A stretch of 64,000 bases of DNA from Siphonodentalium dalli. Lineage: Eukaryota; Mollusca; Scaphopoda; Gadilida; Siphonodentaliidae. Position numbers and translations under genes: made by a program. The notes below the pieces were generated by a model, which saw only the letters and a program-made list of their open reading frames with translations, had not been told where the DNA came from and did not search any database. The DNA lies in NCBI GenBank assembly GCA_032622095.1, contig CP136064.1, positions 169,950,310 to 170,014,309 of the forward strand, given 5' to 3'. This document shows, piece after piece, positions 1 through 32,405 of this stretch; position 1 is the first letter of the stretch; every line of letters starts with the position of its first letter.

Positions 1-3000
1 GACCAGTGTTGTCCCTAAACGATCGTGAGTATGTGGTCTTATCTGTATGTATAGTATGTCGACCATTGTTGTCCCTAAACGATCGTGAGTATGTGGTCTT
101 ATCTGTATGTATAGTATGGCGACCATTGCTGTCTCTAAACGATCGTGAGTATGTGGTCTTATCTGTATGTATAGCATGGCTACCATTGTTGTATCTAAAC
201 GATCGTGAGTATGTGGTCTTATCTGTATGTATAGTATGGCGACCATTGTTGTCCCTATACGATCGTGAGTATGTGGTCTTATCTGTATGTATAGTATGGC
301 GACCATTGTTGTCCCTATACGATCGTGAGTATGTGGTCTTATCTGTATGTATAGTATGGCGACCATTGTTGTCCCTAAACGATCGTGAGTATGTGGTCTT
401 ATATGTAGGTATAGTATGGCGACCATTGTTGTCCCTAAACGATCGTGAGTATGTGGTCTTATATGTAGGTATATTATGGCGACCATTGTTGTCCCTAAAC
501 GATCGTGAGTATGTGGTCTTATCTGTATGTATAGTATGGCGATCATTGTTGTCCCTAAGCGATCGTGAGTATGTGGTCTTATATGTAGGTATAGTATGGC
601 GACCATTGTTGTCCCTAAACGACCATGAGTATGTGGTCTTATCTGTATGTATAGTATGGCGACCATTGTTGTCCCTATACGATCGTGAGTATGTGGTCTT
701 ATCTGTATGTATAGTATGGCGATCATTGTTGTCCCTAAACGATCGTGAGTATGTGGTCTTATCTGTATGTATAGTATGGCGACCATTGTTGTCCCTATAC
801 GATCGTGAGTATGTGGTCATATCTGTATGTATAGTATGGCGACCATTGTTGTCCCTAAACGATCGTGAGTATGTGGTCTTATCTGTATGTATAGTATGGC
901 GACCACTGTTGTCCCTAAACGATCGTGAGTATGTGCTCTTATCTGTATGTATAGTATGGCGACCATTGTTGTCCCTAAACGATCGTGAGTATGTGGTCTT
1001 ATATATGTAGGTATAGTATGGCGACCATTGTTGTCCCTATACGATCGTGAGTATGTGCTCTTATCTGTATGTATAGTATGGCGACCATTGTTGTCCCTAA
1101 ACGATCGTGAGTATGTGGTATTATATGTAGGTATAGTATGGCGACCATTGTTGTCCCTATACGATCGTGAGTATGTGGTCTTATATGTAGGTATAGTATG
1201 GCGACCATTGTTGTCCCTATACGATCGTGAGTATGTGGTCTTATCTGTATGTATAATATGGCGACCATTGTTGTCCCTAAACGATCGTGAGTATGTGGTC
1301 TTATCTGTATGTATAGTATGGCGACCATTGTTGTCCCTATACGATCGTGAGTATGTGGTCTTATCTGTATGTATAGTATGGTGACCATTGTTGTCCCTAA
1401 ACGATCGTGAGTATGTGGTCTTAGCTGTATGTATAGTATGGCGACCATTGTTGTCCCTATACGATCGTGAGTATGTGGTCTTAGCTGTATGTATAGTATG
1501 GCGACCAGTGTTGTCCCTAAACGATCGTGAGTATGTGGTCTTATCTGTATGTATAGTATGTCGACCATTGTTGTCCCCAAACGATCGTGAGTATGTGGTC
1601 TTATCTGTATGTATAGTATGGCGACCATTGCTGTCTCTAAACGATCGTGAGTATGTGGTCTTATCTGTATGTATAGCATGGCTACCATTGTTGTATCTAA
1701 ACGATCGTGAGTATGTGGTCTTATCTGTATGTATAGTATGGCGACCATTGTTGTCCCTATACGATCGTGAGTATGTGGTCTTATCTGTATGTATAGTATG
1801 GCGACCATTGTTGTCCCTATACGATCGTGAGTATGTGGTCTTATCTGTATGTATAGTATGGCGACCATTGTTGTCCCTAAACGATCGTGAGTATGTGGTC
1901 TTATATGTAGGTATAGTATGGCGACCATTGTTGTCCCTAAACGATCGTGAGTATGTGGTCTTATATGTAGGTATATTATGGCGACCATTGTTGTCCCTAA
2001 ACGATCGTGAGTATGTGGTCTTATCTGTATGTATAGTATGGCGATCATTGTTGTCCCTAAGCGATCGTGAGTATGTGGTCTTATATGTAGGTATAGTATG
2101 GCGACCATTGTTGTCCCTAAACGACCATGAGTATGTGGTCTTATCTGTATGTATAGTATGGCGACCATTGTTGTCCCTATACGATCGTGAGTATGTGGTC
2201 TTATCTGTATGTATAGTATGGCGATCATTGTTGTCCCTAAACGATCGTGAGTATGTGGTCTTATCTGTATGTATAGTATGGCGACCATTGTTGTCCCTAT
2301 ACGATCGTGAGTATGTGGTCATATCTGTATGTATAGTATGGCGACCATTGTTGTCCCTAAACGATCGTGAGTATGTGGTCTTATCTGTATGTATAGTATG
2401 GCGACCACTGTTGTCCCTAAACGATCGTGAGTATGTGGTCTTATCTGTATGTATAGTATGGCGACCATTGTTGCCCCTATACGATCGTGAGTATGTGGTC
2501 TTATATGTATGTATAGTATGGCGACCATTGTTGTCCCTAAACGATCGTGAGTATGTGGTCTTATCTGTATGTATAGTATGGCGACCATTGTTGTCCATAA
2601 AAGATCGTGAGTATGTGGTCTTATCTGTATGTATAGTATGGCGACCATTGTTGTCCCTATACGATCGTGAGTATGTGGTCTTATTTGTATGTATAGTATC
2701 GCGACCATTGTTGTCCCTAAACGATCGTGAGTATGTGGTCTTATCTGTATGTATAGTATGGCGACCATTGTTGTCCCTATACGATCGTGAGTATGTGGTC
2801 TTATCTGTATGTATAGTATGGCGACCATTGTTGTCCCTAAACGATCGCGAGTATGTGGTCTTAAATGTATGTATAGTATGGCGACCATTGTTGTCCCTAA
2901 ACGATCGTGAGTTTGTGGTCTTATCTGTATGTATAGTATGACGACCATTGTTGTCCCTAAACGATCGTGAGTGTGTGCTCTTATACGTATGTATAGTATG

Positions 3001-6000
3001 GCGACCATTGTTGTCCCTAAACGATCGTGATTATGTGCTCTTATCTGTATGTATTGTATGGCGACCATTGTTGTCCCTAAACGATCGTGAGTATGTGCTC
3101 TTATCTGTATGTATAGTATGGCGACCATTGTTGTCCTTAAACGATCGTGAGTATGTGGTCTTATATGTAGGTATAGTATGGAGACCATTGTTGTCCCTAT
3201 ACGATCGTGAGTATGTGCTCTTATCTGTATGTATAGTATGGCGACCATTGTTGTCCCTAAACGATCGTGAGTATGTGGTCTTATCTGTATGTATAGTATG
3301 GCGACCATTGTTGTCCCTAAACGATCGTGATTATGTGCTCTTTTCTGTATGTATAGTATGGCGACCATTGTTGTCCCTAAATGATCGTGAGTATGTGCTC
3401 TTATCTGTATGTATAGTATGGCGACCATTGTTGTCCCTAAACGATCGTGAGTGTGTGGTATTATATGTAGGTATAGTATGGCGACCATTGTTGTCCCTAT
3501 ACGATCGTGAGTATGTGGTCTTATATGTATGTATAGTATGGCGACCATTGTTGTCCCTATACGATCGTGAGTATGTGGTCTTATCTGTATGTATAATATG
3601 GCGACCATTGTTGTCCCTAAACGATCGTGAGTATGTGGTCTTATCTGTATGTATAGTATGGCGACCATTGTTGTCCCTATACGATCGTGAGTATGTGGTC
3701 TTATCTGTATGTATAGTATGGTGACCATTGTTGTCCCTAAACGATCGTGAGTATGTGGTCTTAGCTGTATGTATAGTATGGCGACCATTGTTGTCCCTAT
3801 ACGATCGTGAGTATGTGGTCTTAGCTGTATGTATAGTATGGCGACCAGTGTTGTCCCTAAACGATCGTGAGTATGTGCTCTTATATGTATGTATAGTATG
3901 GCGACCATTGTTGTCCCTAAACGATCGTGATTATGTGCTCTTTTCTGTATGTATAGTATGGCGACCATTGTTGTCCCTAAACGATCGTGAGTATGTGCTC
4001 TTATCTGTATGTATAGTATGGCGACCATTGTTGTCCCTAAACGATCGTGAGTATGTGGTCTTATATATGTAGGTATAGTATGGCGACCATTGTTGTCCCT
4101 ATACGATCGTGAGTATGTGCTCTTATCTGTATGTATAGTATGGCGACCATTGTTGTCCCTAAACGATCGTGAGTATGTGGTATTGTATGTAGGTATAGTA
4201 TGGCGACCATTGTTGTCCCTATACGATCGTGAGTATGTGGTCTTATATGTATGTATAGTATGGCGACCATTGTTGTCCCTATACGATCGTGAGTATGTGG
4301 TCTTATCTGTATGTATAATATGGCGACCATTGTTGTCCCTAAACGATCGTGAGTATGTGGTCTTATCTGTATGTATAGTATGGCGACCATTGTTGTCCCT
4401 ATACGATCGTGAGTATGTGGTCTTATCTGTATGTATAGTATGGTGACCATTGTTGTCCCTAAACGATCGTGAGTATGTGGTCTTAGCTGTATGTATAGTA
4501 TGGCGACCATTGTTGTCCCTATACGATCGTGAGTATGTGGTCTTAGCTGTATGTATAGTATGGCGACCAGTGTTGTCCCTAAACGATCGTGAGTATGTGG
4601 TCTTATCTGTATGTATAGTATGTCGACCATTGTTGTCCCTAAACGATCGTGAGTATGTGGTCTTATCTGTATGTATAGTATGGCGACCATTGCTGTCTCT
4701 AAACGATCGTGAGTATGTGGTCTTATCTGTATGTATAGCATGGCTACCATTGTTGTATCTAAACGATCGTGAGTATGTGGTCTTATCTGTATGTATAGTA
4801 TGGCGACCATTGTTGTCCCTATACGATCGTGAGTATGTGGTCTTATCTGTATGTATAGTATGGCGACCATTGTTGTCCCTATACGATCGTGAGTATGTGG
4901 TCTTATCTGTATGTATAGTATGGCGACCATTGTTGCCCCTATACGATCGTGAGTATGTGGTCTTATATGTATGTATAGTATGGCGACCATTGTTGTCCCT
5001 AAACGATCGTGAGTATGTGGTCTTATATGTATGTATAGTATGGCGACCATTGTTGTCCCTAAAAGATCGTGAGTATGTGGTCTTATCTGTATGTATAGTA
5101 TGGCGACCATTGTTGTCCCTATACGATCGTGAGTATGTGGTCTTATTTGTATGTATAGTATCGCGACCATTGTTGTCCCTAAACGATCGTGAGTATGTGG
5201 TCTTATCTGTATGTATAGTATGACGACCATTGTTGTCCCTATACGATCGTGAGTATGTGGTCTTATCTGTATGTATAGTATGGCGACCATTGTTGTCCCT
5301 AAACGATCGCGAGTATGTGGTCTTATATGTATGTATAGTATGGCGACCATTGTTGTACCTATACGATCGTGAGTATGTGGTCTTATCTGTATGTATAGTA
5401 TGGCGACCATTGTTGTCCCTAAACGATCGTGAGTATGTGGTCTTATCTGTATGTATAGTATGGCGACCATTGTTGTCCCTAAACGATCGTGAGTATGTGG
5501 TCTTATATGTATGTATAGTATGGCGACCATTGTTGTCCCTAAACGATCGTGAGTATGTGGTCTTATATGTAGGTATAGTATGGCGACCATTGTTGTCCCT
5601 AAACGATCGTGAGTATGTGGTCTTATCTGTATGTATAGTATGGCGATCATTGTTGTCCCTAAACGATCGTGAGTATGTGCTCTTATATGTAGGTATAGTA
5701 TGGCGACCATTGTTGTCCCTAAACGATCGTGAGTATGTGGTCTTATCTGTATGTATAGTATGGCGACCATTGTTGTCCCTAAACGATCGTGAGTATGTGG
5801 TCTTATCTGTATGTATAGTAAGGCGATCATTGTTGTCCCTAAACGATCGTGAGTATGTGGTCTTATATGTAGGTATAGTATGGCGACCATTGTTGTCCCT
5901 AAACGATCGTGAGTATGTGGTCTTATATGTATGTATAGTATGGCGACCATTGTTGTCCCTAAACGATCGTGAGTATGTGGTCTTATCTGTATGTATAGTA

Positions 6001-9000
6001 TGGCGACAATTGTTGTCCCTAAACGATCGTGAGTATGTGCTCTTATCTGTATGTATAGTATGGCGACCATTGTTGTTCCTAAACGATCGTGAGTATGTGG
6101 TCTTATATGTAGGTATAGTATGGCGACCATTGTTGTCCCTATACGATCGTGAGTATGTGCTCTTATCTGTATGTATAGTATGGCGACCATTGTTGTCCCT
6201 AAACGATCGTGAGTATGTGGTCTTATATGTAGGTATAGTATGGCGACCATTGTTGTCCCTATACGATCGTGAGAATGTGCTCTTATCTGTATGTATAGTA
6301 TGGCGACCATTGTTGTCCCTAAACGATCGTGAGTATGTGGTCTTATATGTAGGTATAGTATGGCGACCATTGTTGTCCCTATACGATCGTGAGTATGTGG
6401 TCTTATCTGTATGTATAGTATGGCGACCATTGTTGTCCCTATACGATCGTGAGTATGTGGTCTTATCTGTATGTATAGTATGGCGACCATTGTTGTCCCT
6501 AAACGATCGTGAGTATGTGGTCTTATCTGTATGTATAGTATGGCGACCATTGTTGTCCCTATACGATCGTGAGTATGTGGTCTTATCTGTATGTATAGTA
6601 TGGCGACCATTGTTGTCCCTAAACGATCGTGAGTATGTGGTCTTAGCTGTGTGTATAGTATGGCGACCATTGTTGTCCCTAAACGATCGTGAGTATGTGG
6701 TCTTATCTGTATGTATAGTATGACGACCATTGTTGTCCCTAAACGATCGTGAGTATGTGGTCTTATCTGTATGTATAGTATGGCGACCATTGTTGTCCAT
6801 AAACGATCGTGAGTATGTGGACTTATCTGTATGTATAGTATGGCTACCATTGTTGTATCTAAACGATCGTGAGTATGTGGTCTTATCTGTATGTATAGTA
6901 TGGCGACCATTGTTGTCCCTATACTATCGTGAGTATGTGGTCTTATCTGTATGTATAGTATGGCGACCTTTGTTGTCCCTATACGATCGTGAGTATGTGG
7001 TCTTATCTGTATGTATAGTATGGCGACCATTGTTGTCCCTATACGATCGTGAGTATGTGGTCTTATCTGTATGTATAGTATGGCGACCGTTGTTGTCCCT
7101 AAACGATCGTGAGTATGTGGTCTTATCTCTATGTATAGTATGGCGACCATTGTTGTCCCTATACGATCGTGAGTATGTGGTCTTATCTGTATGTATAGTA
7201 TGGCGACCATTGTTGTCCCTATACTATCGTGAGTATGTGGTCTTATCTGTATGTATAGTATGGCGACCATTGTTGTCCCTATACTATCGTGAGTATGTGG
7301 TCTTATCTGTATGTATAGTATGGCGACCATTGTTGTCCCTATACTATCGTGAGTATGTGGTCTTATCTGTATGTATAGTATGGCGACCTTTGTTGTCCCT
7401 ATACGATCGTGAGTATGCGGTCTTATCTCTATGTATAGTATGGCGACCATTGTTGTTCCTATACGATCGTGAGTATGTGGTCTTATCTGTATGTATAGTA
7501 TGGCGACCGTTGTTGTCCCTAAACGATCGTGAGTATGTGGTCTTATAAGTAGGTATAGTATGGCGACCATTGTTGTCCATAAACGATCGTGAGTATGTGG
7601 TCTTATCTGTATGTATAGTATGGCGATCATTGTTGTCCCTAAACGATCGTGAGTATGTGGTCTTATATGTAGGTATAGTATGGCGACCATTGTTGTCCCT
7701 AAACGATCGTGAGTATGTGGTCTTATCTGTATGTATAGTATGGCGACCATTGTTGTCCCTAAACGATCGTGATTATGTGGTCTATCTGTATGTATAGTAT
7801 GGCGATCATTGTTGTCCCTAAACGATCGTGAGTATGTGGTCTTATATGTAGGTATAGTATGGCGACCATTGTTGTCCCTAATAGATCGTGAGTATGTGGT
7901 CTTAGCTGTATGTATAGTATGGCGACCATTGTTGTCCCTAAACGATCGTGAGTATGTGGTCTTATCTGTATGTATAGTATGGCGACCATTGTTGTCCCTA
8001 AACGATCGTGAGTATGTGCTCTTATATGTATGTATAGTATGGCGACCATTGTTGTCCCTAAACCATCGTGATTATGTGCTCTTATCTGTATGTATAGTAT
8101 GGCGACCACTGTTGTCCCTAAACGATCGTGAGTATGTGCTCTTATCTGTATGTATAGTATGGCGACCATTGTTGTCCCTAAACGATCGTGAGTATGTGGT
8201 CTTATATGTAGGTATAGTATGGCGACCATTGTTGTCCCTATACGATCGTGAGTATGTGCTCTTATCTGTATGTATAGTATGGCGACCATTGTTGTCCCTA
8301 AACGATCGTGAGTATGTGGTCTTATCTGTATGTATAGTATGGCGACCATTGTTGTCCCTAAACGATCGTGAGTATGTGATCTATCTGTATGTATAGTATG
8401 GCGATCATTGTTGTCCCTAAACGATCGTGAGTATGTGGTCTTATCTGTATGTATAGTATGGCGACCATTGTTGTCCCTACACGATCGTGAGTATGTGGTC
8501 TTATCTGTATGTATAGTATGACGACCATTGTTGTCCCTAAACGATCGTGAGTGTGTGCTCTTATACGTATGTATAGTATGGCGACCATTGTTGTCCCTAA
8601 ACGATCGTGATTATGTGGTCTTATCTGTATGTATAGTATGGCGACCATTGTTGTCCCTAAACGATCGTGAGTATGTGCTCTTATCTGTATGTATAGTATG
8701 GCGACCATTGTTGTCCTTAAACGATCGTGAGTATGTGGTCTTATATGTAGGTATAGTATGGAGACCATTGTTGTCCCTATACGATCGTGAGTATGTGCTC
8801 TTATCTGTATGTATAGTATGGCGACCATTGTTGTCCCTAAACGATCGTGAGTATGTGGTCTTATCTGTATGTATAGTATGGCGACCATTGTTGTCCCTAA
8901 ACGATCGTGAGTATGTGCTCTTATATGTATGTATAGTATGGCGACCATTGTTGTCCCTAAACGATCGTGATTATGTGCTCTTTTCTGTATGTATAGTATG

Positions 9001-12000
9001 GCGACCATTGTTGTCCCTAAACGATCGTGAGTATGTGCACTTATCTGTATGTGTAGTACGCGACCATTGTTGTCCCTAAACGATCGTGAGTATGTGGTCT
9101 TATATATGTAGGTATAGTATGGCGACCATTGTTGTCCCTATACGATCGTGAGTATGTGCTCTTATCTGTATGTATAGTATGGCGACCATTGTTGTCCCTA
9201 AACGATCGTGAGTATGTGGTATTATATGTAGGTATAGTATGGCGACCATTGTTGTCGCTATACGATCGTGAGTATGTGGTCTTATATGTATGTATAGTAT
9301 GGCGACCATTGTTGTCCCTATACGATCGTGAGTATGTGGTCTTATCTGTATGTATAATATGGCGACCATTGTTGTCCCTAAACGATCGTGAGTATGTGGT
9401 CTTATCTGTATGTATAGTATGGCGACCATTGTTGTCCCTATACGATCGTGAGTATGTGGTCTTATCTGTATGTATAGTATGGTGACCATTGTTGTCCCTA
9501 AACGATCGTGAGTATGTGGTCTTAGCTGTATGTATAGTATGGCGACCATTGTTGTCCCTATACGATCGTGAGTATGTGGTCTTAGCTGTATGTATAGTAT
9601 GGCGACCAGTGTTGTCCCTAAACGATCGTGAGTATGTGGTCTTATCTGTATGTATAGTATGTCGACCATTGTTGTCCCTAAACGATCGTGAGTATGTGGT
9701 CTTATCTGTGTGTATAGTATGGCGACCATTGCTGTCTCTAAACGATCGTGAGTATGTGGTCTTATCTGTATGTATAGTATGGCGACCATTGTTGTCCCTA
9801 TACGATCGTGAGTATGTGGTCTTATATGTATGTATAGTATGGCGACCATTGTTGTCCCTATACGATCGTGAGTATGTGGTCTTATCTGTATGTATAGTAT
9901 GGCGACCATTGTTGTCCCTAAACGATCGTGAGTATGTGGTCTTATATGTAGGTATAGTAAAGCGACCATTGTTGTCCCTAAACGATCGTGAGTATGTGGT
10001 CTTATATGTAGGTATATTATGGCGACCATTGTTGTCCCTAAACGATCGTGAGTATGTGGTCTTATCTGTATGTATAGTATGGCGATCATTGTTGTCCCTA
10101 AGCGATCGTGAGTATGTGGTCTTATATGTAGGTATAGTATGGCGACCATTGTTGTCCCTAAACGACCATGAGTATGTGGTCTTATCTGTATGTATAGTAT
10201 GGCGACCATTGTTGTCCCTAAACGATCGTGAGTATGTGGTCTTATATGTATGTATAGTGTGGCGATCATTGTCCCTAAACGATCGTGAGTATGTGGTCTT
10301 ATATGTAGGTATAGTATGGCGACCATTGTTGTCCCTAAACGATCGTGAGTATGTGGTCTTATCTGGATGTATAGTATGGCGACCATTGTTGTCCCTAAAC
10401 GATCGTGAGTATGTGGTCTTATCTGGATGTATAGTATGGCGACCATTGTTGTCCCTAAACGATCGTGAGTATGTGGTCTTATCTGTATGTATAGTATGGC
10501 GACCATTGTTGTCCCTAAACGATCGTGAGTATGTGGTCTTATCTGTATGTATAGTATGGCGACCATTGTTGTCCCTAAACGATCGTGAGTATGTGCTCTT
10601 ATCTGTATGTATAGTATGGCGACCATTGTTGTCCCTAAACGATCGTGAGTATGTGGTCTTATATGTAGGTATAGTATGGCGACCATTGTTGTCCCTATAC
10701 GATCGTGAGTATGTGCTCTTATATGTATGTATAGTATGGCGACCATTGTTGTCCCTAAACGATCGTGAGTATGTGGTCTTATATGTAGGTATAGTATGGC
10801 GACCATTGTTGTCCCTATACGATCGTGAGTATGTGGTCTTATCTGTATGTATAGTATGGCTTCCATTGTTGTCCCTATACGATCGTGAGTATGTGGTCTT
10901 ATCTGTATGTATAGTATGGCGACCATTGTTGTCCCTAAACGATCGTGAGTATGTGGTCTTAGCTGTATGTATAGTATGGCGACCATTGTTGTCCCTATAC
11001 GATCGTGAGTATGTGGTCTTAGCTGTATGTATAGTATGGCGACCAGTGTTGTCCCTAAACGATCGTGAGTATGTGGTCTTATCTGTATGTATAGTATGTC
11101 GACCATTGTTGTCCCTAAACGATCGTGAGTATGTGGTCTTATCTGTGTGTATAGTATGGCGACCATTGCTTTCTCTAAACGATCGTGAGTATGTGGTCTT
11201 ATCTGTATGTATAGCATGGCTACCATTGTTGTATCTAATCGATCGTGAGTATGTGGTCTTATCTGTATGTATAGTATGGCGACCATTGTTGTCCCTATAC
11301 GATCGTGAGTATGTGGTCTTATCTGTATGTATAGTATGGCGATCATTGTTGTCCCTAAGCGATCGTGAGTATGTGGTCTTATATGTAGGTATAGTATGGC
11401 GACCATTGTTGTCCCTAAACGACCATGAGTATGTGGTCTTATCTGTATGTATAGTATGGCGACCATTGTTGTCCCTAAACGATCGTGAGTATGTGGTCTT
11501 ATATGTATGTATAGTGTGGCGATCATTGTCCCTAAACGATCGTGAGTATGTGGTCTTATATGTAGGTATAGTATGGCGACCATTGTTGTCCCTAAACGAT
11601 CGTGAGTATGTGGTCTTATCTGGATGTATAGTATGGCGACCATTGTTGTCCCTAAACGATCGTGAGTATGTGGTCTTATCTGTATGTATAGTATGGCGAC
11701 CATTGTTGTCCCTAAACGATCGTGAGTATGTGCTCTTATATGTATGTATATTATGGCGACCATTGTTGTCCCTAAACGATCGTGATTATGTGCTCTTATC
11801 TGTATGTATAGTATGGCGACCATTGTTGTCCCTAAACGATCGTGAGTATGTGCTCTTATCTGTATGTATAGTATGGCGACCATTGTTGTCCCTAAACGAT
11901 CGTGAGTATGTGGTCTTATATGTAGGTATAGTATGGCGACCATTGTTGTCCCTATACGATCGTGAGTATGTGCTCTTATATGTATGTATAGTATGGCGAC

Positions 12001-13365
12001 CATTGTTGTCCCTAAACGATCGTGAGTATGTGGTCTTATATGTAGGTATAGTATGGCGACCACTGTTGTCCCTATACGATCGTGAGTATGTGGTCTTATC
12101 TGTATGTATAGTATGGCTTCCATTGTTGTCCCTATACGATCGTGAGTATGTGGTCTTATCTGTATGTATAGTATGGCGACCATTGTTGTCCCTAAACGAT
12201 CGTGAGTATGTGGTCTTATCTGTATGTATAGTATGGCGACCATTGTTGTCCCTATACGATCGTGAGTATGTGGTCTTATCTGGATGTATAGTATGGCGAC
12301 CATTGTTGTCCCTAAACGATCGTGAGTATGTGCTCTTATATGTATGTATAGTATGGCGACCATTGTTGTCCCTAAACGATCGTGATTATGTGCTCTTATC
12401 TGTATGTATAGTATGGCGACCATTGTTGTCCCTAAACGATCGTGAGTATGTGGTCTTATCTGTATGTATAGTATGGCGACCATTGTTGTCCGTAAACGAT
12501 CGTGAGTATGTGGTCTTATCTGTATGTATAGTATGGCTACCATTGTTGTATCTAAACGATCGTGAGTATGTGGTCTTAACTGTATGTATAGTATGGCGAC
12601 CATTGTTGTCCCTAAACGATCGTGATTATGTGGTCTTATCTGTATGTATAGTATGGCGACCATTGTTGTCCCTATACGATCGTGAGTATGTGCTCTTATA
12701 TGTATGTATAGTATGGCGTCCATTGTTGTCCCTAAACGATCGTGAGTATGTGGTCTTATATGTAGGTATAGTATGGCGACCATTGTTGTCCCTATACGAT
12801 CGTGAGTATGTGGTCTTATCTGTATGTATAGTATGGCGACCATTGGTGTCCCTATACGATCGTGAGTATGTGGTCTTATCTGTATGTATAGTATGGCGAC
12901 CATTGTTGTCCCTAAACGATCGTGAGTATGTGGTCTTATCTGTATGTATAGTATGGCGACCATTGTTGTCCCTATACGATCGTGAGTATGTGGTCTTATC
13001 TGTATGTATAGTATGGCGACCATTGTTGTCCCTAAACGATCGTGAGTATGTGGTCTTATCTGTGTGTATAGTATGGCGACCATTGTTGTCCCTAAACGAT
13101 CGTGAGTATGTGGTCTTATCTGTATGTATAGTATGGCTACCATTGTTGTATCTAAACGATCGTGAGTATGTGGTCTTAACTGTATGTATAGTATGGCGAC
13201 CATTGTTGTCCCTATACGATCGTGAGTATGTGGTCTTATCTGTATGTATAGTATGGCGACCATTGTTGTCCCTATACGATCGTGATTATGTGGTCTTATC
13301 TGTATGTATAGTATGGCGATCATTGTTGTCCCTAAACGATCGTGAGTATGTGGTCTTGTCTGTGT
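1..13365. repeat. 60-bp tandem satellite array with higher-order structure
   Basis: About 222 head-to-tail copies of a 60-bp unit (core CCCTAAACGATCGTGAGTAT, then TGTGGTCTTAT and a GTATAGTATGGC end) run without a break from the left edge to about 13,365. Most copies differ by 1-5 bases from a set of recurring variants (AAACG/ATACG, TCTGTATG/ATGTAGG, GGTC/GCTC). A few units have other lengths: 62 bp near 961, 4,021 and 9,061; 59 bp near 7,770 and 8,370; 57 bp near 10,264 and 11,521. Because 60 is divisible by 3 and the unit lacks stops in several frames, long open frames appear on both strands (20-residue repeats). The off-length units shift those frames, so I treat the array as non-coding satellite. 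The array starts outside the window. Confidence 0.97.
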
Positions 13366-23550: not shown

Positions 23551-23557
23551 AATTAAT

Positions 23558-23835
23558 AGAAGAATAGGGGGCTCGTTACCGTCACATCTAAAAATAGAAT
23601 CTTTGGGGTCTAAAATTGTTTGTACTAAAATATTCCCAAAATATCAAAACCCAAAAAAAAATTTCAAAACTTCAAAAATTTATTTTTTCAAAAAATTATT
23701 TTTTCCAAAAATTATTTTTTCCAAAAATTATTTTTTCCAAAAAATTTATAAATTTCCAAACTTCCAAATTATCAAAACCCCAAAATTTCCAAACTTCCAA
23801 ATTATCAAAACCCCCAAAATTGTTTAAATAAAAAA
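23558..23835. repeat. left outer terminus of the palindromic element
   Basis: Starts AGAAGAATAGGGGGCTCG and continues into ATCTAAAAATAGAATCTTTG, TACTAAAATATTCCC and an AT-rich run of CCAAAAATTATTTTTT-type units. The ATCTAAAAATAG...ATATTCCC block (about 23,586-23,640) recurs in the same orientation at 27,604, near the centre. The left arm has one more 16-bp AT-rich unit than the right arm. Confidence 0.85.
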
Positions 23836-24830
23836 TTTATAACGAGTTTTCGGTTTCTGATAAACTCGATATTAAAAAATGTCGAATGTTAAATTATTTG
23901 CGCGTAATATCTTTCGTAATATTTTTTTGTTCAAATATTTTTCATGAATTTATTAATCGATGTTTAGAAATAGCTTTATTGGACATTGTGACCATCGATA
24001 TGAATGCATACATTCCAGTGTTTTATCGACGCAGTTCATATAATTGTCATACCTGAAAATAGACACCATTACTTTTACATAAATAATCAACAGCGTTTAT
24101 TCTTTACACTCTCTCTATCCCATATGACAGGCGTGTATTTTCGTCAATTATTGGAAGTATTGAAATGTACTATGTTGAATTACTAACGGTCGAAAATGGT
24201 AAGGCGAAATTACAACCCTCCAGAATGAATTGTCATATTGAATGAATGATGATTTAATCTCAGCCATTTTTACATGGAACATGAGCGATGTACACGCAAT
24301 CACACACGCCACATTGGTGTTAACAATGTGTCTTTCACACCTTTGCTTTACCAAATGAATTCTATTATTTCCCCGGTCACAGCTATATGGTATTCAGAAA
24401 ACAAATCGATTTAGAACAAAACGAGTTAGTATCAATTAAGGTTGATAAACTGTGTCATTCACGCGATAATTAGTTATCCATAAAACATGCATACATATTA
24501 AGTCAGGTCGTGAGACACTCAATTATACAAATTGCTTTGATCACATTGTTATAACAACATTACGTAATAACCCCTTATCACTCCAGTCACACTTACGATC
24601 ATATACCCCCACATTCATACTTACGCTTTGGACATTTTATCAGTTTATCGCGTGATCACTAAATGTGGCAATCGGGTATCCTCCGATGTCTGCAATATAT
24701 TATTTATAATAATTGGACTCATTGATCTCACGTGAATAATACTCTTAGTTGTTCCAATAAAATAGTTATCAAATTCGATCACCAATAGATTTGACTGTGG
24801 AATGTAATGACCTTTAACTTATTTATCGAT

Positions 24831-25545
24831 CTAAAGGGACACTCATTATGAATGAATGTTAACAATACAAGCGCACGAATGAAGAGCGTTGAACATATAC
24901 GAAATTACTACACGAATGAATTGAACCTTGAAATTTATATTTCACATCTTACCAACAACAGATACAGACATAGTCATAGTGTTATACTATCTTACATGTA
25001 CCCATGCTATGACATCATTCGAATGGGCAATACACTCAAGGAGTTAAAGTGACACGAAACAAGGGACGTGATGTAATATTGGTGTATGAATCTTAAAGGA
25101 ACACAAGACACTCTAAAGGGACACTCATTATGAAGGAATGTTAACAATACAAGCGCACGAATGAAGAGCGTTCAACATATACGAAATTACTACACGAATG
25201 AATTGAACCTTGAAATTTATATTTCACATCTTACCAACAACAGCTACAGACATAATCATAGTATTATACTGTCTTGCATGTACACACGCTATGACATCAT
25301 TAAAGGCGGACAATCCACTCACGGTGTGACAACAGATACGGACATAGGCATAGTGTTATACAGTCTTCTATGTACCCACGCTATGACATACTTAAAGGGG
25401 GATAATGCACGCACGGTGTGGAATGTTAAAGTGACACGAAACAAGGGACGTGATGCAATATTGGTGTTTGAATATTAAAAGGAACACAAGACACTCTAAA
25501 GGGACACTCATTATGAATGAATGTTAACAATACAAGCGCAGTGGT
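24831..25545. repeat. direct repeats inside the left arm
   Basis: Three starts of the same unit, CTAAAGGGACACTCATTATG, lie at about 24,831, 25,113 and 25,496. The first two units are about 282 and 383 bp; the third is cut off after about 50 bp. Each carries AACAATACAAGCGCA, and the first two continue into ACGAATGAAGAGCGTT, ACCTTGAAATTTATATTTC and GTGACACGAAACAAGGGACG. Small open frames in them are repeats of each other, not genes. The right arm has the mirror copies. Confidence 0.85.
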
Positions 25546-25726
25546 TGAAAGTTAAAATGACAGATCAATATTTAAGGGTCAAATTTTCGGGCACTTAATG
25601 CACCTTTTGTCATTACGTATCGTTTCTCACTCTACAATTCCCAATAATCCACACACTCTCTCCCCCCTCCAGCTTATAGATATATAACGAAAACGAGAAT
25701 ATCATGTTGATGAAGTTTATTGAAAT

Positions 25727-27499
25727 TTAATCGTCCGAATTGTCATCACTTTCGCCAGAAGTGTCATATGTTACGTCCATGAATTTTTCTAGCATCGGTT
25801 TGTACTTTAATATTGACATTTTCACTGCATCACGTTCTCCATAACCATTATTCAAATATTTGTCGACTTTATCCATGACTCTGTTGTGCAGAGTCCCATT
25901 GCGCAGCTGCAGATACGATACTATTGTCCAAGCATAATCAGTCATAAAGTGTATCATATCTTTACTTTTAAGGTCCTTGTCAGCTTGTTCTTTTGCTTCT
26001 GCGTCTTTCGAGCCATTTTCCTTATACGTGTCCACTTTATCACTCCATTCCTCACGTGTTTTATCTCTACTTTCATCACGCAAACTTTTGAAGTATTCAT
26101 CTTCATTCAATTTAAATTCCTTATTCTCACTATCATCCGGGTCCTCAGTTAATTTTCGTTTTAACTTATTTTCTTGACACCAGTTTTTTACGTGTCTCTG
26201 AACATCATAATGATCTGCGAACAAAAGCCCGCATTCATTACAAGGGTACGACATGTCTTCTTGAATGTCTCTGTTTTGATGGTTCTTCTTATTGATTTCA
26301 TCGAGCTCACCAGGTGGCCGTATGTCGTTAGTATAGTCATTATGTTGACCCTGGGGCACAATATAATTATATGTTATGCCCTTCTGTTGACGGGGGAGTT
26401 CTCTGTCATCGTATTTCATCGCATTCTGTTGACCCTGGGTCTCAGTGTCTTTTGTATGTTTTTTCATCCCATTCTGTTCATCTGGGTGTTCTCTGTCTTT
26501 TTGGAGATTATATTTCATGCCATTCCATTCACCCCTATGTTGGTTCGTGTCCTCTTTTAGTACATTCTGTCGCAGACGTAATGTGTCCGGTGTTGCGGCT
26601 TTTAAATCCACCAGTAGGTAACCGTACGGTTCACTCGTCGCTTCCGAAAACTCTCGAACCATACGCTGAGGACATTCAGGATACATCTGTCTTGATAATG
26701 TTGAAATTAATCCCTTGTCGATTGGGTTATTGAACAATACCAAATATTGACAATTTCGTCGTTGCGTTGGATCTTTGTTGTAGTAGAAATTCTGGTTCAA
26801 ACTTATCAAAGATAAGTTCAAATGGTGACTTCCTTCGGAATGCAAATCATTAACTCTCTGGTCTTTTGATGAAGTTTGCATCAAGTCATCGAGTATAACT
26901 AGATTTTTATACCGGGGGTTGATAAGAGAATCCAAGTTTGCTGGTATTCCTCGTATAAAGTTGACCTGAGGGGTGACGGTATACTTTAATTCGTCATATA
27001 GGGGCTGCCAATATTTATAAAACCATATTATTCTGTCAGGTGCGGGTGATATTTTTGAGGCAGACTTTTGTAGCAAGGTTTTCACGAAGTATGTCTTACC
27101 ACAAGATGTAGGTCCACTTACACATGCCGTGAATGGATGCTTGAAAATAAAATCTTCATGGACATTGGCCATTGGATCATCAAAGCAGGATGTTATGTCG
27201 CTTTGTTGCTGTGTCCCCTGCTGGTGTTGTAGTATCTGGTGTTGCTGTAATGGCTGTTGTTGTGGCTGATGATACTGCTGCCTGTTGCTGCTACGGTCTG
27301 TTGCTGTTGCTTGGTGCTGCTGCTGTGGGTGTCGGTTAACAAACTCAGTGTGCTTAGATTGTACATGTCTTATCAAATCATGTTGGTGCTGCTGCTGTGG
27401 TTGTCGGTTAACAAACTCAGTGTGCTTAGATTGTACATGTCTTATCAAATCATGGTTCCGCACATACCCCCTAGAGCAAATTGAACACTGGTGCTTCAT
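25727..27499 (-). CDS. C2H2 zinc finger fused to A32/FtsK-like packaging-type ATPase (left copy, 590 aa)
   Basis: Residues 5-26 form a C2H2 finger (C-x2-C-x12-H-x4-H). A block of about 24 residues from its second half (HDLIRHVQSKHTEFVNR) is repeated at 40-56 without the cysteines. A Gln/His-rich linker spans about 57-100. The P-loop domain follows: Walker A GPTSCGKT at 129-136, DRIIWFYKYWQPLYDEL near 155-171, Walker B NLVILDD at 199-205, and LNQNFYY with Gln at 236. This order and wording match the packaging ATPases of Polinton/Maverick elements (A32 branch of the FtsK/HerA superfamily), which pump DNA into capsids. Residues 320-400 are hydrophilic with QQNGMKY-like repeats. A C2HC finger (C420, C423, H436, C441) and a charged, acidic-ending C-terminus follow. 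TTTATT at 25,716-25,721 gives a polyadenylation signal just after the stop. The frame is intact. Family placement is from memory of motifs; DNA-packaging function here is inference. Confidence 0.85.
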   Translation of the reverse strand: MKHQCSICSRGYVRNHDLIRHVQSKHTEFVNRQPQQQHQHDLIRHVQSKHTEFVNRHPQQQHQATATDRSSNRQQYHQPQQQPLQQHQILQHQQGTQQQSDITSCFDDPMANVHEDFIFKHPFTACVSGPTSCGKTYFVKTLLQKSASKISPAPDRIIWFYKYWQPLYDELKYTVTPQVNFIRGIPANLDSLINPRYKNLVILDDLMQTSSKDQRVNDLHSEGSHHLNLSLISLNQNFYYNKDPTQRRNCQYLVLFNNPIDKGLISTLSRQMYPECPQRMVREFSEATSEPYGYLLVDLKAATPDTLRLRQNVLKEDTNQHRGEWNGMKYNLQKDREHPDEQNGMKKHTKDTETQGQQNAMKYDDRELPRQQKGITYNYIVPQGQHNDYTNDIRPPGELDEINKKNHQNRDIQEDMSYPCNECGLLFADHYDVQRHVKNWCQENKLKRKLTEDPDDSENKEFKLNEDEYFKSLRDESRDKTREEWSDKVDTYKENGSKDAEAKEQADKDLKSKDMIHFMTDYAWTIVSYLQLRNGTLHNRVMDKVDKYLNNGYGERDAVKMSILKYKPMLEKFMDVTYDTSGESDDNSDD

Positions 27500-27603
27500 T
27501 TATACTTTACTAAAATGTCTCGGTATTTCAAAATGTACAAGTCACTCTTTTTTCTGCATTTTATTTTAGAAAGTTTATCGACTCTTATAAAAATCGATTA
27601 TTG

Positions 27604-28194
27604 CATCTAAAAATAGAATCTTTGGGTCTAAAATTGGTTGTACTAAAATATTCCCAAAAACCCAAAACTTCAAAAATTTCAAAAAACTTCAAAAAACTTC
27701 AAAAATTTCAAAAACTTCAAAAATTTCAAAAATTTCAAAAACTTCAAAAAACTTCAAAAATTTCAAAAACTTCAAAAATAAGACCCCGGCGGCGGCGGCG
27801 GCGGCGGCGGCGGCATTGCGGTAATGCCGGTATTTGCCGCCGGCGGCGGCGGCGGCGGCATTGCGGTATTTTACTGCGGCGGCGGTGCCGCCGCCGCCGC
27901 CGGGGGGCCGCCGCCGACGGACCCCCGCAGTAAAATACTGCAATGCCGCCGCCGCCGCCGCCGGCGGCAAATACCGGCATTACCGCAATGCCGCCGCCGC
28001 CGCCGCCGCCGGGGTCTTATTTTTGAAGTTTTTGAAATTTTTGAAGTTTTTTGAAGTTTTTGAAATTTTTGAAATTTTTGAAGTTTTTGAAATTTTTGAA
28101 GTTTTTTGAAGTTTTTTGAAATTTTTGAAGTTTTGGGTTTTTGGGAATATTTTAGTACAACCAATTTTAGACCCAAAGATTCTATTTTTAGATG
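27604..28194. repeat. central 590-bp palindrome with (CGG)n core
   Basis: The central part begins with ATCTAAAAATAGAATCTTTG in + orientation at 27,607 and ends with its complement at about 28,190. These motifs also sit at the outer ends of the big palindrome. Inside are ACTTCAAAAA-type runs (27,665-27,778), then a GC-rich core at about 27,783-28,014 made of GGC/GCC triplets and CATTGCGGTATTT blocks. The left arm has nine GGC units where the right has seven GCC. About 45 bases (27,880-27,924) at the axis do not pair. Alanine- and arginine-rich open frames here are translations of the triplets, not genes. Confidence 0.85.
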
Positions 28195-28199
28195 CAATA

Positions 28200-28298
28200 A
28201 TCGATTTTTATAAGAGTCGATAAACTTTCTAAAATAAAATGCAGAAAAAAGAGTGACTTGTACATTTTGAAATACCGAGACATTTTAGTAAAGTATAA
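28200..28298 (+). promoter_or_regulatory. presumed 5' flank shared by both ATPase copies
   Basis: Between the central palindrome and each start codon lie the same roughly 100 bases, mirrored at about 27,500-27,600. TAAAGTATAAATG directly precedes and includes the ATG at 28,299. Both genes therefore presumably have identical promoters, firing outward from the centre. No experimentally defined element is recognisable, so the promoter role is inferred from position only. Confidence 0.35.
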
Positions 28299-30068
28299 AT
28301 GAAGCACCAGTGTTCAATTTGCTCTAGGGGGTATGTGCGGAACCATGATTTGATAAGACATGTACAATCTAAGCACACTGAGTTTGTTAACCGACAACCA
28401 CAGCAGCAGCACCAACATGATTTGATAAGACATGTACAATCTAAGCACACTGAGTTTGTTAACCGACACCCACAGCAGCAGCACCAAGCAACAGCAACAG
28501 ACCGTAGCAGCAACAGGCAGCAGTATCATCAGCCACAACAACAGCCATTACAGCAACACCAGATACTACAACACCAGCAGGGGACACAGCAACAAAGCGA
28601 CATAACATCCTGCTTTGATGATCCAATGGCCAATGTCCATGAAGATTTTATTTTCAAGCATCCATTCACGGCATGTGTAAGTGGACCTACATCTTGTGGT
28701 AAGACATACTTCGTGAAAACCTTGCTACAAAAGTCTGCCTCAAAAATATCACCCGCACCTGACAGAATAATATGGTTTTATAAATATTGGCAGCCCCTAT
28801 ATGACGAATTAAAGTATACCGTCACCCCTCAGGTCAACTTTATACGAGGAATACCAGCAAACTTGGATTCTCTTATCAACCCCCGGTATAAAAATCTAGT
28901 TATACTCGATGACTTGATGCAAACTTCATCAAAAGACCAGAGAGTTAATGATTTGCATTCCGAAGGAAGTCACCATTTGAACTTATCTTTGATAAGTTTG
29001 AACCAGAATTTCTACTACAACAAAGATCCAACGCAACGACGAAATTGTCAATATTTGGTATTGTTCAATAACCCAATCGACAAGGGATTAATTTCAACAT
29101 TATCAAGACAGATGTATCCTGAATGTCCTCAGCGTATGGTTCGAGAGTTTTCGGAAGCGACGAGTGAACCGTACGGTTACCTACTGGTGGATTTAAAAGC
29201 CGCAACACCGGACACATTACGTCTGCGACAGAATGTACTAAAAGAGGACACGAACCAACATAGGGGTGAATGGAATGGCATGAAATATAATCTCCAAAAA
29301 GACAGAGAACACCCAGATGAACAGAATGGGATGAAAAAACATACAAAAGACACTGAGACCCAGGGTCAACAGAATGCGATGAAATACGATGACAGAGAAC
29401 TCCCCCGTCAACAGAAGGGCATAACATATAATTATATTGTGCCCCAGGGTCAACATAATGACTATACTAACGACATACGGCCACCTGGTGAGCTCGATGA
29501 AATCAATAAGAACCATCAAAACAGAGACATTCAAGAAGACATGTCGTACCCTTGTAATGAATGCGGGCTTTTGTTCGCAGATCATTATGATGTTCAGAGA
29601 CACGTAAAAAACTGGTGTCAAGAAAATAAGTTAAAACGAAAATTAACTGAGGACCCGGATGATAGTGAGAATAAGGAATTTAAATTGAATGAAGATGAAT
29701 ACTTCAAAAGTTTGCGTGATGAAAGTAGAGATAAAACACGTGAGGAATGGAGTGATAAAGTGGACACGTATAAGGAAAATGGCTCGAAAGACGCAGAAGC
29801 AAAAGAACAAGCTGACAAGGACCTTAAAAGTAAAGATATGATACACTTTATGACTGATTATGCTTGGACAATAGTATCGTATCTGCAGCTGCGCAATGGG
29901 ACTCTGTACAACAGAGTCATGGATAAAGTCGACAAATATTTGAATAATGGTTATGGAGAACGTGATGCAGTGAAAATGTCAATATTAAAGTACAAACCGA
30001 TGCTAGAAAAATTCATGGACGTAACATATGACACTTCTGGCGAAAGTGATGACAATTCGGACGATTAA
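28299..30068 (+). CDS. C2H2 zinc finger fused to A32/FtsK-like packaging-type ATPase (right copy, 589 aa)
   Basis: Mirror copy of the gene at 25,727-27,499, with the same N-terminal C2H2 finger, duplicated half-finger, Gln-rich linker, Walker A (GPTSCGKT), Walker B (VILDD), Asn-Gln sensor region and C-terminal C2HC finger. I see two protein differences: one Lys of the KK pair at 404-405 is missing (3-base deletion), and His538 of the left copy is Tyr here. The frame is open from ATG at 28,299 to TAA at 30,066-30,068, and AATAAA follows at 30,074-30,079. Two intact copies argue for recent duplication, gene conversion between arms, or selection. The N-terminal finger may bind DNA such as the element's ends, but nothing in the sequence proves this. 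Confidence 0.85.
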   Translation: MKHQCSICSRGYVRNHDLIRHVQSKHTEFVNRQPQQQHQHDLIRHVQSKHTEFVNRHPQQQHQATATDRSSNRQQYHQPQQQPLQQHQILQHQQGTQQQSDITSCFDDPMANVHEDFIFKHPFTACVSGPTSCGKTYFVKTLLQKSASKISPAPDRIIWFYKYWQPLYDELKYTVTPQVNFIRGIPANLDSLINPRYKNLVILDDLMQTSSKDQRVNDLHSEGSHHLNLSLISLNQNFYYNKDPTQRRNCQYLVLFNNPIDKGLISTLSRQMYPECPQRMVREFSEATSEPYGYLLVDLKAATPDTLRLRQNVLKEDTNQHRGEWNGMKYNLQKDREHPDEQNGMKKHTKDTETQGQQNAMKYDDRELPRQQKGITYNYIVPQGQHNDYTNDIRPPGELDEINKNHQNRDIQEDMSYPCNECGLLFADHYDVQRHVKNWCQENKLKRKLTEDPDDSENKEFKLNEDEYFKSLRDESRDKTREEWSDKVDTYKENGSKDAEAKEQADKDLKSKDMIHFMTDYAWTIVSYLQLRNGTLYNRVMDKVDKYLNNGYGERDAVKMSILKYKPMLEKFMDVTYDTSGESDDNSDD

Positions 30069-30234
30069 ATTTCAATAAACTTCATCAACATGATATTCTC
30101 GTTTTCGTTATATATCTATAAGCTGGAGGGGGGAGAGAGTGTGTGGATTATTGGGAATTGTAGAGTGAGAAACGATACGTAATGACAAAAGGTGCATTAA
30201 GTGCCCGAAAATTTGACCCTTAAATATTGATCTG

Positions 30235-30970
30235 TCATTTTAACTTTCAACCACTGCGCTTGTATTGTTAACATTCATTCATAATGAGTGTCCCTTTAGA
30301 GTGTCTTGTGTTCCTTTTAATATTCAAACACCAATATTGCATCACGTCCCTTGTTTCGTGTCACTTTAACATTCCACACCGTGCGTGCATTATCCCCCTT
30401 TAAGTATGTCATAGCGTGGGTACATAGAAGACTGTATAACACTATGCCTATGTCCGTATCTGTTGTCACACCGTGAGTGGATTGTCCGCCTTTAATGATG
30501 TCATAGCGTGTGTACATGCAAGACAGTATAATACTATGATTATGTCTGTAGCTGTTGTTGGTAAGATGTGAAATATAAATTTCAAGGTTCAATTCATTCG
30601 TGTAGTAATTTCGTATATGTTGAACGCTCTTCATTCGTGCGCTTGTATTGTTAACATTCCTTCATAATGAGTGTCCCTTTAGAGTGTCTTGTGTTCCTTT
30701 AAGATTCATACACCAATATTACATCACGTCCCTTGTTTCGTGTCACTTTAACTCCTTGAGTGTATTGCCCATTCGAATGATGTCATAGCATGGGTACATG
30801 TAAGATAGTATAACACTATGACTATGTCTGTATCTGTTGTTGGTAAGATGTGAAATATAAATTTCAAGGTTCAATTCATTCGTGTAGTAATTTCGTATAT
30901 GTTCAACGCTCTTCATTCGTGCGCTTGTATTGTTAACATTCATTCATAATGAGTGTCCCTTTAGATCGAT
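30235..30970. repeat. direct repeats inside the right arm (mirror set)
   Basis: Reverse-complement counterparts of the three repeat starts in the left arm, ending with CATAATGAGTGTCCCTTTAG at about 30,296, 30,680 and 30,965. They lie in the same relation to the right-hand ATPase gene. Confidence 0.85.
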
Positions 30971-31944
30971 AAATAAGTTAAAGGTCATTACATTCCACAG
31001 TCAAATCTATTGGTGATCGAATTTGATAACTATTTTATTGGAACAACTAAGAGTATTATTCACGTGAGATCAATGAGTCCAATTATTATAAATAATATAT
31101 TGCAGACATCGGAGGATACCCGATTGCCACATTTAGTGATCACGCGATAAACTGATAAAATGTCCAAAGCGTAAGTATGAATGTGGGGGTATATGATCGT
31201 AAGTGTGACTGGAGTGATAAGGGGTTATTACGTAATGTTGTTATAACAATGTGATCAAAGCAATTTGTATAATTGAGTGTCTCACGACCTGACTTAATAT
31301 GTATGCATGTTTTATGGATAACTAATTATCGCGTGAATGACACAGTTTATCAACCTTAATTGATACTAACTCGTTTTGTTCTAAATCGATTTGTTTTCTG
31401 AATACCATATAGCTGTGACCGGGGAAATAATAGAATTCATTTGGTAAAGCAAAGGTGTGAAAGACACATTGTTAACACCAATGTGGCGTGTGTGATTGCG
31501 TGTACATCGCTCATGTTCCATGTAAAAATGGCTGAGATTAAATCATCATTCATTCAATATGACAATTCATTCTGGAGGGTTGTAATTTCGCCTTACCATT
31601 TTCGACCGTTAGTAATTCAACATAGTACATTTCAATACTTCCAATAATTGACGAAAATACACGCCTGTCATATGGGATAGAGAGAGTGTAAAGAATAAAC
31701 GCTGTTGATTATTTATGTAAAAGTAATGGTGTCTATTTTCAGGTATGACAATTATATGAACTGCGTCGATAAAACACTGGAATGTATGCATTCATATCGA
31801 TGGTCACAATGTCCAATAAAGCTATTTCTAAACATCGATTAATAAATTCATGAAAAATATTTGAACAAAAAAATATTACGAAAGATATTACGCGCAAATA
31901 ATTTAACATTCGACATTTTTTAATATCGAGTTTATCAGAAACCG

Positions 31945-32221
31945 AAAACTCGTTATAAATTTTTTATTTAAACAATTTTGGGGGTTTTGATAATTTGGAA
32001 GTTTGGAAATTTTGGGGTTTTGATAATTTGGAAGTTTGGAAATTTATAAATTTTTTGGAAAAAATAATTTTTGGAAAAAATAATTTTTTGAAAAAATAAA
32101 TTTTTGAAGTTTTGAAATTTTTTTTTGGGTTTTGATATTTTGGGAATATTTTAGTACAAACAATTTTAGACCCCAAAGATTCTATTTTTAGATGTGACGG
32201 TAACGAGCCCCCTATTCTTCT
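31945..32221. repeat. right outer terminus of the palindromic element
   Basis: Complement of the left terminus, ending CGAGCCCCCTATTCTTCT followed by ATTAAT. It has two of the 16-bp AT-rich units where the left end has three. Flanking sequence after 32,228 (TCCTAGCAGG) shares nothing with the left flank. Confidence 0.85.
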
Positions 32222-32405
32222 ATTAATTTCCTAGCAGGTAATGGCTTCCTGCTAATTTACCAGGCAATTCTTTAAGGATTGGCCATTTATAAATGAACAA
32301 TCGAAACCCAAAAAGGCCATTAATATATGGTCAATCGCAAACACGCGTGGTCAATTGTCCATTTAGAAAGAACAATCAACGCTAATCATTTAAGTTAATT
32401 TTTAT

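Follow-up and report, generated by a model that had tools for sequence, protein, structure and literature searches.

A palindromic element with paired packaging ATPase genes and Polinton-type ends, probably a Polinton satellite, in Siphonodentalium dalli

The element and its ATPase genes

The locus described here is a palindrome with two head-to-head genes for a packaging ATPase. It is situated in a 64,000-nt stretch of Siphonodentalium dalli contig CP136064.1 (the window, whose positions serve as coordinates below unless a contig or locus is named) and is probably a satellite of Polintons (Mavericks). The element proper, 8664 bp long (Table 1), is bounded by ATTAAT on either side. Self-comparison resolved its inverted arms into segments of 2617 nt (23674-26290/29505-32121), 1523 nt (26286-27808/27990-29512) and 177 nt (23551-23727/32052-32228), each 100% complementary; beyond the element ends the mirror symmetry is gone. 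A first-pass annotation, made from the sequence alone, had reported near-perfect inverted arms, AG...CT termini next to ATTAAT and one intact gene of 589-590 aa per arm. All of these are real: the termini read AGAAG...CTTCT, and the genes are two open reading frames (ORFs) of 590 aa (minus strand) and 589 aa (plus strand). The extent given there, 23551..32228, does contain the element, but takes in the ATTAAT duplications plus one extra matching base per side. ATTAAT is its own reverse complement, and the window alone leaves it ambiguous whether it belongs to the repeat. It is taken as a target duplication, not a repeat end, because the 19 other resolved copies described below carry 19 other 6-bp duplications.

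Both arm proteins consist of a C2H2 finger, an A32/FtsK-like ATPase, a second finger and a helical C-terminus. In both, Pox_A32 scored above its Pfam cut-off and the C2H2 fingers scored below theirs. The right-arm protein only was modelled and used in the fold search. Its mean predicted local distance difference test score (pLDDT) was 73.7, exceeding 90 over the greater part of the ATPase core and C-terminal helices, whereas the linkers were disordered, and its 14 top matches in the Protein Data Bank (PDB) were the genome-packaging NTPase B204 of STIV viruses. The family match and the structural matches agree with the earlier assignment to the A32-like packaging ATPases. The core is strongly conserved in 43 aligned sequences. 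A protein search matched 227 proteins, and the named ones among the best 120 of these are from bivalve molluscs. Four gene models from Mya and Mytilus (P0036, P0040, P0059 and P0086) have the ATPase fused to integrase or chromodomain sequence, so that the family adjoins Polinton-type integrases in these two as well. A PHROGs search gave two weak matches only (E 0.1 and 0.95), a profile search against the sequences of solved structures yielded zinc fingers for the most part, besides a few further weak matches, and of 20 stretches of viral contigs that fitted a pattern, none encoded a relative.

That the ATPase was the only gene kept had also been proposed, and in an ORF scan it was, twice, the only evident gene. 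Apart from frames antisense to the ATPase and frames within the central repeats, none of at least 130 aa was found besides it in the window element; the ORFs of the outer arm are all under 130 aa, one of 105 aa lying within a repeat zone. The element can be at most a non-autonomous derivative, because no further gene-sized frame is present for a polymerase or integrase.

Copies across the genome and their ends

The assembly searched comprises 2.23 Gb in nine contigs (C1-C9). Paired by eye, the best 74 of 5797 candidate ATPase matches formed 33 head-to-head pairs, the window included, and 8 singles, some of which gained a partner in a later search. In the matched stretch 73 of the 74 are free of stops, and the remaining one has two TGA codons. 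The later search used 126 residues of the ATPase core; the best 150 of its 2612 candidates are all 100% identical there and all lie on C1-C4. Of these, 112 make up 56 head-to-head pairs with a spacing of 1.5-2.2 kb; for the remaining 38, no partner in that orientation is among the matches listed; one further neighbouring pair has both matches in the same orientation.

Twenty of the 32 further pairs from the first search were fetched (L-numbered), giving 21 copies with the window. All 21 are palindromes, as is apparent for 17 from self-comparison and for L026, L028, L030 and L038 from ends, ORFs and arm alignment. AGAAG...CTTCT ends and a perfect 6-bp target duplication are present in 20 copies, of 8.31-9.13 kb, with 20 different duplication words, and the copy flanks have only dispersed repeats in common. 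In the remaining copy, L034, one arm contains about 1.4 kb of additional sequence and the right end seems to fall beyond what was fetched; this copy was left out of the end and arm counts. Further copies in the same genome and Polinton-type ends with 6-bp duplications, both anticipated by the first-pass annotation, were thus found.

The ends were also searched for directly, with 23551-23673 (starting 7 bases before the AG) as the query. Their presence elsewhere is evident: most of the best 40 of 2085 candidates begin at the AG exactly or a few bases off, and 34 form 17 inward pairs (paired by eye), 6 being unpaired. One pair spans 16.3 kb, 14 span 7.3-8.7 kb (window included) and two span 6.7 and 4.4 kb. 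These last two (C9:158045561-158052240 and C5:98939405-98943837, respectively) are possibly shorter forms of the same family. Eight of the 17 pairs are on C1-C4; five hold ATPase-core matches, and the 16.3-kb pair and pairs of about 8.5 and 8.1 kb hold none among the matches listed. The other nine are on contigs outside the ATPase-core matches listed.

Between copies the terminal repeat varies at positions 11-14 and 21-25, and in one copy also at 7-10. The first 26 bases take 16 forms among 20 copies, yet in all 20 the left end agrees with the right. Two blocks near the very ends (window 23568-23582) vary more between copies than the adjoining bases.

Two subfamilies are represented. The 590-aa ATPase occurs in the window, L021 and L022 among the fetched copies, the extra length in the window being a 72-bp tandem duplication. 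Between gene and tip, the window has a second copy of the subterminal sequence and a 62-bp stretch that matches the helper described below; the 566-aa copies shown have a different inner stretch, resembling outer-arm sequence. The tip is common to both subfamilies.

Identity of the arms and selection on the ATPase

For 20 copies, an alignment was made of the two arms over their outer 3650 bases. Within a copy the arms differ at 0-10 bases (0-0.275%), compared with at least 0.55% (median 2%) between copies, and for each of the 40 arms the closest relative is the partner arm of the same copy. The alignment shows that each copy's two arms derive from one template. Outer arms measure 1921-2350 bp across copies, left and right agreeing within 1 bp in 17 of 20. 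Within copies 69 differences were counted, 59 of them private to a single arm. In 17 left arms of the 566-aa type (the profile covers neither the three 590-aa copies nor any right arm) outer intervals differ by 0.2-7% and gene intervals by 0.1-0.6%, each copy carrying one version in both arms.

Differences in the ATPase between the arms of a copy number 5 synonymous and 27 nonsynonymous over the 21 copies (dN/dS 1.29), and variants common to both arms number 14 and 16, respectively (Fisher p 0.013 for the two sets). The left ORF of L024 is shorter (481 aa) and was kept in these codon counts. Pooled between-copy dN/dS is 0.33, and that between the 590- and 566-aa subfamilies 0.20. The codon changes show that the ATPase was under purifying selection up to insertion and under none from then on. 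The two arms most probably became alike no later than insertion, because each copy has one version in spite of the divergence between copies, and because of this contrast in selection.

The central tip

At the centre of the palindrome is a sequence predicted to fold as a T. In the window it has a folding energy of -47.1 kcal/mol (z -7.4). Three copies folded as single-stranded DNA all gave a stem with two adjacent hairpins (z -7.4, -8.1 and -5.5). An asymmetric tip of about 70 bases amid GC-rich repeats occurs in 18 of the 21 copies; the full motif is present in 14 and is slightly changed in L030, L031 and L038.

Tip asymmetry was tabulated for 13 of the 21 copies, omitting L025, in which the gene start word was not found, and the seven without the full motif. 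The same A/G asymmetry lies 11 bases from the tip in 11 of the 13, and other recurrent asymmetries lie at 12 and 31 bases; beyond 31 bp no recurrent asymmetric substitution was found in these copies, recurrence being judged by eye. An asymmetric tip that persists while the sequence outside it is made alike would be expected from self-primed extension near the tip. This is the main step of the interpretation, and one that we infer rather than demonstrate.

Flip/flop orientation of the tip was considered as a sign of hairpin transfer and rejected: 14 copies comprise 6 in plus and 8 in minus orientation, which reflects merely the orientation of insertion because the arms are symmetric.

A candidate helper Polinton

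The 16.3-kb pair of inward ends, at C1:39086974-39103264, is 97% identical to those of the window over the terminal 116 bases from the AG, at both ends. It belongs to an element with an integrase and a capsid protein, so that a full Polinton sharing the ends, postulated in the first-pass annotation as a possible mobilizer, is present in the same genome.

The middle 5 kb of this putative helper (L041) was read and contains ORFs of 421, 149, 185, 218, 153 and 112 aa. A relative of the 421-aa protein (P0140, 49% identical) was modelled at pLDDT 91.4, and the capsid proteins of iridovirus, PBCV-1 and Sputnik head its PDB matches, that of mavirus ranking lower; a sequence search of solved structures with the 421-aa protein itself gave no capsid match. 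Judged from the model of its relative, the 421-aa product is a capsid protein of the double jelly-roll fold. The match of the 149-aa ORF to adenovirus endoprotease is weak (E 6e-4) and falls just short of the Pfam cut-off, and the 153- and 112-aa ORFs have no family match. The integrase, an open frame of 384 aa, begins 2.3 kb before the capsid gene.

The capsid gene family appears large and recent, because the 421-aa frame is open in all of the best 99 of 2438 candidates, which are 99-100% identical. Of the best 150 integrase matches, 33 are within 6 kb of one of these 99 scored genes. On C5 and C6, two single end matches are 5.1 kb away from capsid genes, as in the C1 element.

The 185-aa ORF encodes a TATA-binding-protein homologue with two TBP stretches (E 4e-32), and the product of the 218-aa ORF has PC4 coactivator domains (E 8e-14). 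These domain matches suggest that the helper has its own transcription switch. A literature search on such helper genes returned no paper on the subject, as judged by title.

A comparison aimed at a snapback origin, which covered the middle 5 kb of the helper, gave one match to the satellite, of 62 bp. In the helper this stretch overlaps the end of the 153-aa ORF and sits just ahead of the next start; in the satellite it is restricted to the 590-aa subfamily among the loci compared. Its reading as a relic of coding sequence was set aside, as from its position before the next start it may equally be a promoter. The helper also has a GC-rich repetitive stretch (L041:4124-4367), with no match to the satellite tip in the comparison made.

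Among the 150 scored integrase matches there are at least seven convergent (+,-) gene pairs, 5.4-10.9 kb across (for example C3:293381343/293386029, C6:118372922/118378930 and C7:20590775/20595505), none divergent and two tandem. It is possible that these convergent pairs are palindromic derivatives of the opposite end of other Polinton families.

Other features of the region

Positions 1-13363 of the window are a satellite array with a 60-bp unit in about 223 copies, whose periodicity gives long open frames on both strands.

Table 1. Features of the palindromic element (positions in the window) and of the candidate helper (positions in L041)
Feature	Position	Strand	Basis
Whole palindromic element, AGAAG...CTTCT	23558..32221	.	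Self-comparison, sequence, copy comparison
Left target-site duplication, ATTAAT	23552..23557	.	Sequence; copy comparison
Right target-site duplication, ATTAAT	32222..32227	.	Sequence; copy comparison
Outer terminal repeat, left	23558..23673	+	Helper ends match from AG inwards, 97%
Outer terminal repeat, right; end variant same as left	32106..32221	-	End search; copy comparison
Outer arm, left	23558..25726	+	ORF list, copy alignment
Outer arm, right	30069..32221	-	ORF list, copy alignment
Packaging ATPase gene, left arm, 590 aa	25727..27499	-	ORF, Pfam
Packaging ATPase gene, right arm, 589 aa	28299..30068	+	ORF, Pfam, model, fold search
62-bp stretch, 95% like helper, directly upstream of ATPase, left arm	27534..27595	-	Sequence comparison with helper
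Same 62-bp helper-like stretch, right arm	28203..28264	+	Sequence comparison with helper
Inner copy of subterminal sequence, without outermost bases (CATCTAAAAATAGAATCTTTGGG...)	27604..27676	+	86% over 56 nt (repeat family D12)
Inner copy of subterminal sequence, right arm	28122..28194	-	Read from sequence
Asymmetric T-shaped tip at the centre, made up of an outer stem plus two neighbouring GC-rich hairpins	27855..27949	-	DNA fold
Helper TATA-binding-protein homologue and PC4 protein ORFs	L041:2866-3423 and L041:3402-4058	both -	Pfam

Discussion

Polintons have AG...CT ends and make 6-bp target duplications. The present element shares both with them, as well as an A32/FtsK-type packaging ATPase and matching ends in a helper of the same genome, and these features support the earlier proposal of a non-autonomous, palindromic Polinton relative. 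It differs in being a palindrome of about 8.7 kb with two head-to-head ATPases and a T-shaped central tip, and in that no integrase, polymerase, capsid or protease gene was seen in it by ORF scan. Polintons encode a protein-primed DNA polymerase B and an RVE integrase. They are 15-20 kb long, with capsid proteins and a protease in the gene set, according to PMC4028283.

The closest described parallel found is the snapback genomes of adeno-associated virus (AAV), which have a parent end as an inverted duplication and arise in full-virus populations; end joining is what their authors propose (PMC8235507). The satellite, by comparison, is an integrated multi-copy family whose own gene is under selection and whose ends are of the integrase type, and its tip is central and not terminal. 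AAV hairpins are T-shaped, as is the satellite tip. A T-shaped hairpin of the kind expected of parvovirus-like replicons was found in the three folded copies (z -5.5 to -8.1); the Rep (HUH) endonuclease of such replicons was not, there being no further large ORF in the element and no such domain in the ATPase protein.

Foldback and Galileo elements resemble the satellite in that their inverted repeats are very long and, within a copy, highly identical to each other (PMC3573991). The present element contains no transposase-sized ORF besides the ATPase, and its duplications are of 6 bp. Foldback and Galileo elements have other ends, another duplication length and a P-type or MuDR-type transposase, and are not known to carry an intact gene in each arm. 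Virophages and other satellites of large DNA viruses have a satellite lifestyle and a packaging gene of their own; virophages encode capsids, whereas no capsid gene was seen in the palindromic satellite. No palindromic or snapback Polinton derivative was found in searches of an open-access collection, as judged from titles and the starts of abstracts, Repbase and most subscription papers being outside that scope.

Taken together, these data argue that the element is probably a non-autonomous Polinton satellite that replicates by folding back, is mobilized by a helper and encodes a packaging ATPase. Mobilization by a full Polinton would involve the helper's integrase and its putative protein-primed polymerase acting in trans via the common ends. 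On strand displacement, a single strand would fold back at the central tip, and extension of its 3′ end along the other arm would recopy one arm as far as the terminus. In another round, synthesis primed at the end would open the hairpin into a duplex of 8.3-9.1 kb, which the helper integrase would insert. The self-encoded ATPase would probably favour packaging of the satellite in helper capsids. More tentatively, the element may be a self-complementary satellite with a 4.3-kb hairpin, in which the T-shaped tip primes recopying in each cycle. It would then be a hybrid with the ends, integration and packaging of a Polinton, the hairpin replication of a parvovirus-like replicon and a selfish packaging ATPase.

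Several observations weigh against this interpretation. The case is built on genome sequence. The copies were picked by protein score, which biases them towards intact, similar ATPases; this lowers between-copy dN, and should not produce the neutral pattern within copies. Three copies (L023, L024 and L034) are without the tip words and L022 has an altered tip; the tip may not be essential, or these four may have decayed. Repeat-length differences of up to about 200 bases distort distances from the tip, and recurrent asymmetry farther out could escape notice. In 3 of 20 copies, that of the window included, the left and right outer arms are unequal by 16-50 bp. No helper ATPase was among the matches seen, and no helper polymerase was located, no search having been aimed at one. 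There are two main doubts. One is that the helper ends are known as search matches only; the other, which concerns the source of arm identity, is gene conversion, to which 10 of the 69 within-copy differences point in having both states present in other copies.

Conversion is part of the rival that survives best, although we regard it as unlikely: a deleted Polinton whose terminal repeats were lengthened by double-strand-break repair, as in a proposal for Galileo, followed by host gene conversion between the inserted arms. It would account for arms that are alike in each of 20 copies, and most readily for L035, with 92 private changes common to both arms and 0 on one arm only. For Galileo, the two repeats of a single copy are 98-100% identical, and repeats have been proposed to spread through repair (PMC3573991). 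However, the shared variants are under selection and the one-arm changes neutral-like, as if sharing predates insertion; one-arm changes are not rare (63, versus 81 private shared changes, L035 and L036 excluded); and the recurrent tip asymmetry is limited to the innermost 31 bp. A poorer prospect is an inverted dimer that arises in each cycle when a 4.3-kb monomer is joined at, or copied through, its covalently closed hairpin end, self-primed recopying playing no part. The arms would again be alike, and a central T-shaped hairpin is the kind expected at a hairpin telomere, but the tip is one asymmetric sequence and not the symmetric joint of two monomers. Purifying selection on the ATPase between copies might suggest a duplicated gene pair used by the host and mobile only incidentally; the lack of any sign of selection after insertion, the dispersal in high copy number and the target duplications make this very improbable. 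Long palindromes are typical of chimeric reads, but an assembly or library artefact from fold-back reads is hardly credible when copies occupy 20 different sites, every one marked by a distinct duplication, and have flanks alike only in dispersed repeats.

To our knowledge, Polinton replication in animals has been deduced from gene content and hardly observed. What is new here is the close match of the partner arms in each copy, the contrast in selection before and after insertion and the structured, asymmetric centre. The paired arms of the probable Polinton satellite are a built-in record that separates copying before insertion from mutation after it, so that a replication route and selection on a viral packaging gene become readable from genome sequence alone. 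If the element does replicate as a hairpin, the convergent integrase pairs would be its counterpart at the opposite end. Because satellite and probable helper occur together in an animal genome, where the ATPase and capsid genes both have many open copies, helper dependence, packaging and interference can be tested directly.

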